The notes under the pieces are model-generated. The model was not told where the DNA came from, searched no databases, and saw nothing but the letters and a program-made list of their open reading frames with translations. A program made the translations under genes and the position numbers. Positions 41,132 through 45,561 of a stretch of 64,000 nt of DNA are shown one piece after another. This stretch comes from Eubacteriales bacterium (GTDB lineage: Bacteria > Bacillota > Clostridia > Saccharofermentanales > DTU023): positions 368,132 through 432,131 of the forward strand of contig JAUNLW010000001.1 of the NCBI GenBank assembly GCA_030532065.1, read 5' to 3'. Numbering within the stretch: the stretch's first letter is position 1; each line of letters opens with the position of its first letter.

Positions 41132-43285
41132 ATGCTTAAACTGATTAACTTTCTCAAAAAAAGAAAAGTGTCGATAACTCTCATGGCGGCAGTGATAATT
41201 GCCACTGTGCTCTTAGTCCATTTTGGCTCTAAACCCAGACGTTACGATCTCAAGATCAATGATGTCTCTCCCATGGACATTGAAGCTCCGAGAAGCATTA
41301 TTGATATCAATGCCTCTCGCCAGAGAGCTCTGGAAGCCAAAGCGCAGGCACCGGATGTCTATTCGCGTTCGGAAGATCTGAGCCAGCGTTCGCTGCAGAA
41401 AGTTTACGACTTTCTCTATTTGCTCAACCATGAGCGGCAAAATCTTTATACCCGTAACGAAGATGGTAATATTACTCGACCCGGTCGAGGCATCTTTTAT
41501 GTCGCTAGTCATGAGCTGCAAGAAAAGTACAAAGACAACTATGGTTACGATTTTAGCCTGCAAGATGTAGAGAGGCTGTTAAATATTCCCCAAGGACGTT
41601 TCAAGTCTTTCGAGAATCGTATGCGCACGGTAGCAGAGGCTGTTATGGCAGGCTCTGTAGACAACGTCGGCCTGCGTTCAGCAATTAGTAAGAACTCCAG
41701 TCAGCTTGAAGGCGGCAATATAATCTACCCAGAAGATAATGTTTTGCTGCGCTCCTGTCTGGAAAAACTGCTTAAGGGCAATGTGGTCTACAACGAGGAG
41801 GCTACGCTCAACAGCAAACAGGAAGCTTACGACCGCGTAATGCAAAACCCCATAATGATCAATCGAGGTAGCCGCATCGTATCCACAGGCGAGGTAATTA
41901 GCGAAGAAGTTTTTGAAATCTTGAAATCTTTGGGCCTGGTAGAAACGGAGAGCCTGGATTGGGGCATTTTGGGTGGGCAGATCTTGATGGTGACTTTGGT
42001 ACTCGCCATAATGGCTCTTTATCTCTACAGCCATGACCCAGGTTTACTGGCCATTAACCGCCGCTCGGCGGCTTTGTTTACCGCTTTCTTGTTACCCATT
42101 GCGATAGCGGCCTATCTGGGTCAGGAATATCAGTTAGCTCCGCCTGTATATTTCACAGCGGTCGTAGTGAGCGCTTATTTCGGCTATCAGACTTCAATCG
42201 TGGTCACACTTGCCCAAATACTGGTAGTTCTGCCTTTGGTCAACTTTAACCCTGCTTTCGCGTTGGTAGCGATCTGCGGCAGTTTGATGGCCGCTCACTA
42301 TACTAAAGACCTTAAATCCCAGGCGACCCTGGCCAAGCTGTTATTACTCATAGGAGTACTAAATCTACTGACTTCCACTGCCTATACACTCATGCAAGGT
42401 GGCAATGTTATTGGCGCGACTATATACATTACTACCAGTGTTATCTCGGCTCTATTATCTGTAGTAGCAGCTATTGGACTGATGCCGCTCTTTGAGATGA
42501 TCTTCAACATTGTCTCGCCGGCCAGCCTTATTGAGCTGTCACAACCAAAGCATCCCTTATTGAAGCGCCTTTTCCTGGAAGCCCCCGGTACTTCCCAACA
42601 CTCCATGATGGTGGCTAATTTAGCCGATGCCGGCGCGGAAGCTATCGGCGCGGACTCTCTGCTTTGCCGTGTAGGCGCTTATTACCACGATATAGGCAAG
42701 TTGCGTAATCCGCTTTATTTTACGGAAAATCAAGGTGACTATAACCCGCATAAAGAACTCAGCCCGGAAGAAAGCCGGGATATTATTGTACGTCACCCTC
42801 AGGATGGTGTGGAATTGGGCAGGAAGTACAACTTGCCGCAGACAATCCTTGACTTCATGGTGGAGCACCATGGTACAACCATCCTGGCTTATTTTTATGC
42901 CGAGGCTTCCAAAGCTGCGGAAGAAAAGGGTGAGGAACCGCCCAATCCCGATGATTATCGCTATAGAGGCCCGCTACCTTCATCTCCGGAAACAGCGGTA
43001 GTTATGTTCGCTGACTCTACAGAAGCTGCCGTCAAATCTTTGAAAGCAACTTCTATGGATGAAGTAGAAGACAAAATCCGCCAAGTCTTCCAAATAAAGC
43101 TGGATCAAAACCAATTAGTTAATTCCGGCCTGGGTTTTGCCGACATAGAAAAGATCATTCAGGCCTTTATCCAAGTTTATTCCGGCCATTTCCACGAAAG
43201 GATCAAGTACCCCGATGCCCCAAAAGTTGAGAATTACGATTATCAATCGACAGCGTCAGATAAGTCTGGCACCCTGGCTAAATAA
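41132..43285 (+). CDS. Membrane HD-domain phosphodiesterase (7TMR-HD, YqfF/PgpH type)
   Basis: A 717-residue protein. It has one N-terminal membrane helix (about 14-32), a large external 7TMR-HDED domain (about 40-270) and seven membrane helices (about 280-470). A cytoplasmic HD domain (about 485-700) has HSMMVANLADAGAEAIGADS, the pair in VGAYYHDIGKLRNPLYF, and EHHGT. PgpH proteins of this architecture hydrolyse cyclic di-AMP; that activity here is by family. The gene lies between phoH and ybeY as in other Firmicutes and overlaps the next gene by 71 bases. Confidence 0.92.
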   Translation: MLKLINFLKKRKVSITLMAAVIIATVLLVHFGSKPRRYDLKINDVSPMDIEAPRSIIDINASRQRALEAKAQAPDVYSRSEDLSQRSLQKVYDFLYLLNHERQNLYTRNEDGNITRPGRGIFYVASHELQEKYKDNYGYDFSLQDVERLLNIPQGRFKSFENRMRTVAEAVMAGSVDNVGLRSAISKNSSQLEGGNIIYPEDNVLLRSCLEKLLKGNVVYNEEATLNSKQEAYDRVMQNPIMINRGSRIVSTGEVISEEVFEILKSLGLVETESLDWGILGGQILMVTLVLAIMALYLYSHDPGLLAINRRSAALFTAFLLPIAIAAYLGQEYQLAPPVYFTAVVVSAYFGYQTSIVVTLAQILVVLPLVNFNPAFALVAICGSLMAAHYTKDLKSQATLAKLLLLIGVLNLLTSTAYTLMQGGNVIGATIYITTSVISALLSVVAAIGLMPLFEMIFNIVSPASLIELSQPKHPLLKRLFLEAPGTSQHSMMVANLADAGAEAIGADSLLCRVGAYYHDIGKLRNPLYFTENQGDYNPHKELSPEESRDIIVRHPQDGVELGRKYNLPQTILDFMVEHHGTTILAYFYAEASKAAEEKGEEPPNPDDYRYRGPLPSSPETAVVMFADSTEAAVKSLKATSMDEVEDKIRQVFQIKLDQNQLVNSGLGFADIEKIIQAFIQVYSGHFHERIKYPDAPKVENYDYQSTASDKSGTLAK

Positions 43286-44759
43286 AAGTTTGAAAAAACT
43301 TTTAAATAGCGGCTTGGAGCGCACTTTAATATCTATTGCTGGTGAAGAGGAAGACAGCGATCTTAACTTTTCACTCTGCCTTAGTTTTTTGGACACCAAG
43401 GCTATGACCGACTTGAACTCTGAGCAAAGAGGTATTGATCAGCTAACTGATGTGTTGTCTTTTCCTTCTTTTGAATTCCAAGAGGGCAGTTTATCTGTAC
43501 CACTTCAGGGTTATGATTTCGTCGATCCATTCAGTGAGGAACGTGAAATTTTCTTGGGCGATATCGTGATTTCCCCTTTTAGAGCTGAGGAACAGGCAGA
43601 AGACTTGGATCAGAGCTTAGAGCGTGAGATTGCCTTTTTAGCTTTGCACGGTTTATTACATCTATTAGGTTATGACCATGAAGAAGATAGAGAGGCTGAA
43701 CGGATGTTTAGCTTACAAAGAGAATTGATCCAAAATTTTGAGGTTTTATCAGAAGAAAGCGTGGAATTGGATCAAACTGCGTGGCAGGCAGAATTGGCTG
43801 ACTGGCGCGAACAACTGGCTTATGATCAGAAACTGCCGGAAGTAAAGAAAGCCGGTTTTATCGCTTTGATCGGACGCGCCAATGTGGGCAAGTCGACTTT
43901 ACTCAATCAGATCAATGGTCAGGAACTTGCCATTACTAGCTATAAACCCCAGACAACGCGTACCTTGATCCGCTCTGTGGTTTACGAAAAAGACTGCCAG
44001 ATGGCCTTCCTGGATGTGCCGGGTATTCACCCCAATAAACATGCCTTAGATCGCTATATGTCGCGTGCCATCAGCCTGGCCCTACAGGAAGCGGATATTA
44101 TCTGCCTACTCATTGATGCTCGCTTTAAACCGCGGGTAGAAGCGGTTGAGCTTAGGGTTGCCAAACAGGCCCATGACCGGGGCAAGCCACTTTTCCTCTT
44201 GCTAAATAAGTCGGATATAGCAGATAAAGAAGCTATGTTGCCCTTGATTGCCGCTTTCTCGGAAAAATTGGATCCAGATGTAGTAATCCCTATTTCCGCC
44301 CTTACCGGTGACGGATTGGACATTCTGTACGATGAGATAGCCCGCTATTTGCCAGAATCCGGCCCTTTGTTTGCTGTAGACGATTATACCAATCAGACAG
44401 AGTCTGAACTGGCCGCGGAGCTTATCCGCCAACAGGTACTACTGCAAATGCAAGATGAGATCCCTCATGGCACTGCGGTCGTGATCGACAATTTCGAAGA
44501 AGACACAGGACAAGTGCCGCGTCACTTGTCTGTTGCCGCCAGCATTGTGACCGAGCGACAAAATCACAAAGGCATGCTCCTTGGTAAGAGAGGCGTCAGA
44601 ATCAAGCAGATCCGCCTGGCTTCAGAAGATAGAATTGCGGAAGTATTGGATTGTAGCTGTGACCTGGAGCTATTTGTCAGGGTAAAAGAGGGCTGGCGTA
44701 ACAGGCCAGACAGCTTAAATGAACTGGGTTATAAGATCCAGGAAGTGGATATAGAATAG
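43215..44759 (+). CDS. era: Fusion of endoribonuclease YbeY and GTPase Era
   Basis: A 514-residue single reading frame holding two ribosome-assembly factors. Residues 1-170 are YbeY, the 16S rRNA-processing RNase, with the zinc motif HGLLHLLGYDH (His145, His149, His155). After a linker of about 40 residues, residues 210-514 are Era: the G1 loop GRANVGKS (220-227), QTTRT, DVPGIH, NKSD, SALTGDG and a KH domain with GKRGVRIKQI. Genes dgkA and cdd usually lie between ybeY and era; both are absent, so their loss may have allowed the fusion. The ATG at 43215 lies in the end of the preceding gene, with AAAGGA 12 bases upstream. Both domains keep their catalytic residues. Confidence 0.94.
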   Translation: MPQKLRITIINRQRQISLAPWLNKSLKKLLNSGLERTLISIAGEEEDSDLNFSLCLSFLDTKAMTDLNSEQRGIDQLTDVLSFPSFEFQEGSLSVPLQGYDFVDPFSEEREIFLGDIVISPFRAEEQAEDLDQSLEREIAFLALHGLLHLLGYDHEEDREAERMFSLQRELIQNFEVLSEESVELDQTAWQAELADWREQLAYDQKLPEVKKAGFIALIGRANVGKSTLLNQINGQELAITSYKPQTTRTLIRSVVYEKDCQMAFLDVPGIHPNKHALDRYMSRAISLALQEADIICLLIDARFKPRVEAVELRVAKQAHDRGKPLFLLLNKSDIADKEAMLPLIAAFSEKLDPDVVIPISALTGDGLDILYDEIARYLPESGPLFAVDDYTNQTESELAAELIRQQVLLQMQDEIPHGTAVVIDNFEEDTGQVPRHLSVAASIVTERQNHKGMLLGKRGVRIKQIRLASEDRIAEVLDCSCDLELFVRVKEGWRNRPDSLNELGYKIQEVDIE

Positions 44760-44760
44760 C

Positions 44761-45561
44761 GTGGGGCACATTACAACCAAGGCTTTTGTTATGCGGTCAG
44801 TAGTCTACGGTGAGAATCGCAGACTGCTGGATCTCTTGTCTGAAAAGGGAGAGATTTTGACGGTATCATGCCGTATGTCCAGTAAACTCAGTCCCATTAA
44901 TGCCTTGACCATGAATTTTATCCTGGCAGAGTTTGAGCTTTTTGCCTATCGAGATAGGCTTCGTTTAGACGGTGGACGCTTAGAGTACAACTTCAGCGGC
45001 CTGCAGGAAGACTTTGACCGTCTGGCGGCTGCTTCTCATTTGGCTGAGATCTACTTAGACGCGTTGCGTACGCATGAGGCTATGCCCCAAGCCTATCAAC
45101 TCTGGGCCTATAGTGTGAATCGCCTCAACCATAGCACTACACCTTTAATGGATGTGCGAGTAGCACAACTACGCTTCTTGTCAGATCTGGGTTTTCGTCC
45201 CTGGCTCTACGATTGTGGAGTCTGTCATGCGGAATATGGAGAAGGGACAAGTTTCAGCTTTACGGAAGCCTCTTTGCTTTGCCGTAAACCCAGCTGCAGG
45301 CAAGATCTGGATCGCCATCAAATGGTAACTGTTTCACCCGGACTTTTAGCTGCTTTACGTTATATTTTGGATGCGCCTTATAACGCCTTGTTTAGCTTTG
45401 ACTTATCTGCTAGAGTTCGAAAGGAATTTAAAGCTTTTTCAGATCGCTATTTAGAATGGGTCATGGAAAAAGCCTATCATCGCTTAGACTTAGTAGAAGA
45501 TTTAGCGAGGTTTACTCAGGAAATCAAGGCCGGTAATCCACCGGCCGGAAAAGGTGAATAA
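44761..45561 (+). CDS. recO: DNA repair protein RecO
   Basis: A 266-residue RecO, which loads RecA with RecR at single-strand gaps. It has an N-terminal OB-fold (ITTKAFVMRSVVYGENRRLLDLLS, residues about 3-26) and a helical C-terminal domain. A zinc-type set is formed by CGVCHAEYG and LLCRKPSCRQ. It starts with GTG one base after the era stop, with no strong ribosome binding site, so it is probably coupled to Era. era-recO adjacency is standard. Confidence 0.9.
   Translation: MGHITTKAFVMRSVVYGENRRLLDLLSEKGEILTVSCRMSSKLSPINALTMNFILAEFELFAYRDRLRLDGGRLEYNFSGLQEDFDRLAAASHLAEIYLDALRTHEAMPQAYQLWAYSVNRLNHSTTPLMDVRVAQLRFLSDLGFRPWLYDCGVCHAEYGEGTSFSFTEASLLCRKPSCRQDLDRHQMVTVSPGLLAALRYILDAPYNALFSFDLSARVRKEFKAFSDRYLEWVMEKAYHRLDLVEDLARFTQEIKAGNPPAGKGE

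Follow-up and report, generated by a model that had tools for sequence, protein, structure and literature searches.

Proteins in which the endoribonuclease YbeY is joined to the GTPase Era have been in the literature since at least 2019, when Wood et al. (2019; PMC6738653) stated such a fusion for clostridial species. The fusion to YbeY is by far the most frequent one described for Era, occurring in several Clostridia, some Selenomonadales and Thermoleophilum album, and the 2023 review that reports this distribution raises the question of how such complex Era proteins work (PMC10582724). We found no experiments on any fused YbeY-Era protein in the literature. As separate proteins, the two partners have been connected repeatedly: an interaction of YbeY, Era and S11 is described in E. 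coli (PMC5101352), mitochondrial ERAL1 interacts with YBEY in the context of uS11m loading (PMC7515705), and taken together these studies report that YbeY and Era interact, that additional Era genetically rescues the loss of ybeY, and that both are linked to uS11 on the 30S platform (PMC5101352, PMC10582724, PMC7515705). The review assigns YbeY and Era a joint role at the platform, in the installation of uS11 (PMC10582724).

The stretch of DNA analysed here (64,000 nucleotides, hereafter the window) encodes a protein of this type, and the initial annotation, which knew of no common YbeY-Era fusion, is contradicted on this point by the papers just cited. Like the described clostridial proteins (PMC6738653, PMC10582724), it carries YbeY N-terminal to a complete Era in one frame, and it probably comes from the same broad bacterial group, the gene set, the cluster and the small size of the genome all fitting Clostridia. 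There is no difference in kind: the window protein is a further member, from a small-genome species, of a set in which linker length varies between lineages. What we add is small, namely a finer map of fused and split states within one order, forms with a near-zero linker, and the observation that this gene offers no plausible internal site for starting Era; the map and the near-zero-linker forms were not found in the papers searched and may still be reported elsewhere. The features of the locus are as follows (positions in the window):

41132..43285, + strand: gene for a PgpH-type 7TM-HD protein, upstream neighbour, with a 71-nt overlap with the fusion gene in another frame
43215..44759, + strand: ybeY-era fusion gene for 514 aa, coordinates ending with the stop codon (open frame, Pfam and NCBIfam matches, frame kept in the genus)
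43215..43742, + strand: YbeY domain, residues 1-176 (PF02130 at 31-174, TIGR00043 at 36-176)
43428..43430, + strand: R72, the conserved YbeY arginine (aligned to the Arg of solved YbeY proteins)
43647..43679, + strand: YbeY metal-site motif HGLLHLLGYDH with H145, H149 and H155 (sequence and alignment to solved YbeY; conserved in the relatives examined)
43743..43847, + strand: linker, about residues 177-211, varying among relatives and containing neither an in-frame ATG nor a start codon that at least 4 Shine-Dalgarno bases would support
43848..44756, + strand: Era, residues 212-514, GTPase then KH domain (NF000908 at 212-506)
43872..43895, + strand: Era G1 loop GRANVGKS, residues 220-227 (sequence and alignment to solved Era)
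44457..44699, + strand: Era KH domain, residues 415-495, with the GxxG-type loop GKRG (PF07650)
44761..45561, + strand: recO, downstream neighbour, starting one base past the stop codon of the fusion gene

The fusion gene is a single open frame of 514 codons, from the ATG at 43215 to the TAG ending at 44759, and Pfam, NCBIfam and alignments agree with the earlier reading of it as a complete YbeY followed by a complete Era. Pfam places YbeY at residues 31-174 (PF02130, E 2.5e-35, 121.6 bits against a cut-off of 25), MMR_HSR1 at 216-332 (E 8.7e-22) and KH_2 at 415-495 (PF07650, E 2.5e-12). The NCBIfam equivalog models score above their curated cut-offs for both YbeY (TIGR00043, 123.5 bits versus 45) and Era (NF000908, 291.3 bits versus 237; TIGR00436, 200.1 bits versus 116.25). 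Alignment with solved proteins bears out the residue numbers given initially for the three histidines and the G1 loop, and shows that the three-histidine metal site (HxxxHxxxxxH) and the conserved arginine of YbeY are present. The two parts are separated by a linker of about 35 residues. Near 44013-44030, the G3 motif of the Era part reads DVPGIH, the solved Era proteins having DTPGI. Genome-wide, the fusion gene is the sole ybeY gene and encodes the sole full-length Era, the remaining GTPase matches being weak, partial and 27-35% identical to Era. By family criteria the protein is thus a YbeY endoribonuclease joined to an Era GTPase, for which RNase activity, GTP hydrolysis and 30S binding are predicted.

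Compared with the separate YbeY and Era of S. aureus and E. coli, both domains match the equivalog models and the solved structures over their full length, and the gene lies among neighbours, phoH and recO, that are typical of era clusters (PMC10582724); the difference is that the pair is covalently joined and that neither dgkA nor cdd separates its two parts. The order in the window is phoH, the PgpH-type 7TM-HD gene, ybeY-era and recO. The overlap of the PgpH-type gene with the fusion gene (43215-43285) is of a kind common at this junction across the order; taking the first possible start as reference, such overlaps measure between 4 nt and over 100 nt. A genome-wide search for prokaryotic DgkA (PF01219) gave no match anywhere in the assembly (roughly 93% complete, 27 contigs), and two genes of the deaminase family (PF00383), each a candidate for cdd, are located at other places on the contig. 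The gene order and these searches therefore uphold the earlier remark that neither dgkA nor cdd intervenes between ybeY and era.

That an assembly or sequencing error erased a stop between two genes has to be considered for a genome in 27 contigs with unfused relatives. Yet the two other genus members share the continuous frame (52-56% identity), so that it is open in 3/3 genus genomes, and dozens of further genomes are fused as well, including the single-contig genomes G039 and G042 from another family of the order. We therefore reject this explanation, whose probability we regard as negligible; the fusion in the window is genuine and typical of its lineage.

Within the order, fused and split states form a mosaic. 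In the family of the window, the genera g1 (that of the window), g3, g4 and g6 are fused and g2, g5 and g7 are not; every examined locus is fused in families f2 and f4, and ybeY and era are separate in every examined locus of family f3. In the split members of the order they are adjacent and often overlapping genes. A quick-method tree built on the concatenated YbeY and Era sequences of 72 loci, from which the direction of change is not readable, requires five changes between fused and separate; well-supported branches enforce two or more of these. Outside the order, one of the 137 genomes of the same class with a YbeY match carries the fusion (G198, locus L114; 479 aa, confirmed by Pfam), and none of 148 other genomes sampled from the phylum does, all frames but one being too short. 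That one, a 668-aa YbeY frame in G606, was rejected as a GC-rich open frame running ahead of a lone YbeY. In G637 (L113), a frame of 311 aa falls short of the length that both proteins together would need. A scan of genome contigs yielded no more than three distant relatives, in none of which YbeY and Era share a frame. Given the counts in the class and the phylum, the fused architecture is typical of the order and rare elsewhere within the samples drawn.

The junction itself varies considerably. In many unfused relatives ybeY and era share a few bases at their ends (overlaps such as ATGA), and in others the gap between them measures from a few to a few dozen bases, so that one indel or one altered stop codon could merge the genes. 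In two unfused loci, L010 (G043) and L011 (G057), the genes stand in the same reading frame, split by a short stop-containing stretch, an arrangement that appears close to a fusion or fission event. Among the fused loci, the spacing between the third YbeY histidine and the Era G1 loop is the same in every g3 locus (34 residues, 5/5) and likewise in every g4 locus (31 residues, 9/9), which leaves almost no linker. In g6 it is mostly 33-36, with one value of 107, and values of 47 to 122 occur in g1, f2 and f4, where the linker is variable and often acidic. Locus L086 (G022) has about 70 extra acidic, repeat-like linker residues, hence its distance of 107 versus 33-36 in the rest of its genus. 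All three YbeY histidines are conserved in 45/45 fused loci examined. The YbeY arginine is replaced by Met in fused L080 and L086 (G013 and G022) and in separate L073, with the three histidines kept; judging from this substitution, nuclease activity may be reduced in these relatives.

A fused gene might still release a free Era from an internal start. The 40 codons ahead of the Era G1 loop in the window gene contain neither an in-frame ATG nor a start codon with a Shine-Dalgarno match of at least 4 bases, and free Era from internal initiation therefore appears unlikely in this genome. By this simple motif count (a start codon plus at least 4 matching Shine-Dalgarno bases), 23/25 unfused relatives have a supported era start and 16/45 fused genes pass the test for an internal one.

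We propose, with a probability of roughly 0.7, that this lineage-typical fusion acts as a tether to the nascent 30S platform. An indel or stop loss at the junction of adjacent or overlapping ybeY and era genes, as relatives have them, would have produced one frame; the GTPase and KH domains of Era would attach to h45 and the platform of the nascent 30S; YbeY would be brought along at 1:1 stoichiometry and would then act on or with the uS11/platform region and, if a nuclease, on nearby RNA. What our data contribute to this scheme is the single frame, the two intact domains, the conservation of the fused frame, and the adjacency or overlap of the genes in unfused relatives. The tether is supported by the completeness of both domains with their catalytic and G-motif residues, by the fused frame in the two other genus genomes and many other members of the order, by the retention of the YbeY histidines in every fused locus, by the neighbouring, often overlapping genes of unfused relatives, by the missing internal era start in the window gene as against nearly all unfused relatives, and by the literature links of YbeY, Era and uS11 (PMC5101352, PMC7515705, PMC10582724). 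It is weakened by the loss of the arginine in two fused relatives, where full nuclease activity may be lost in places, by the wide variation of the linker in length and sequence, which fits a tether but equally neutral drift, and by closely related genera that manage without the fusion. On balance, a tether is the most likely working mode, and the step shared by the partners is most likely platform assembly and not terminal 3' cleavage.

The neutral counterpart of this proposal is that overlapping, translationally coupled ybeY and era genes fuse and split by chance, with nothing but co-expression being kept. Overlaps between neighbours are indeed general in the cluster, and the genes alternate between fused and split in a single family. 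Moreover, YbeY has been joined to another partner: in a genome from a different family of the class (G188, L115:1405-2358) it is fused in frame to cytidine deaminase in a protein of 317 aa, with PF02130 and PF00383 both above cut-offs and separate era and recO genes directly downstream. The cluster has produced two kinds of fusion, and for this one a literature search of titles and abstracts returned no report. As in the window, YbeY forms one chain with its next neighbour in the cluster; the difference is that this neighbour is a cytidine deaminase and Era remains a separate gene, and YbeY thus also joins a neighbour without a known ribosome role. Against joining by chance, whole families (f2, f4) keep the fused state across large sequence divergence, and the partners interact physically and genetically already as separate proteins. 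We consider a purely neutral origin unlikely.

The remaining alternative concerns the site of action and not the joining. The initial annotation had the fusion hold nuclease and GTPase at the 3' end of 16S rRNA for its final maturation, for which the intact YbeY histidines and the disturbed 16S processing reported upon loss of YbeY and of Era speak. The 2023 review, in contrast, argues that Era leaves before late or final processing of the 16S 3' end and points to installation of uS11 at the platform (PMC10582724), which weakens this reading, and loss of human YBEY occurs without misprocessing of 12S rRNA (PMC7515705). A role in final 3' maturation is thus very improbable; what survives of the earlier idea is the co-delivery of both factors to one place on the 30S.

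Fusion of the two partners hints at a step of ribosome assembly that they have in common, and the compact fusions with a near-zero linker could help to locate YbeY on the small subunit. It is conceivable, and we put it forward tentatively as less probable than not, that YbeY and Era have been joined more than once because both factors occupy neighbouring sites of the 30S platform simultaneously. If this were true, the near-zero-linker forms of g3 and g4 would hold the YbeY C-terminus a few residues from the first strand of Era, and would offer naturally occurring distance restraints with which YbeY could be positioned on the nascent subunit. The fusion itself not being new, its value is that of a good experimental system and of a small evolutionary case study.
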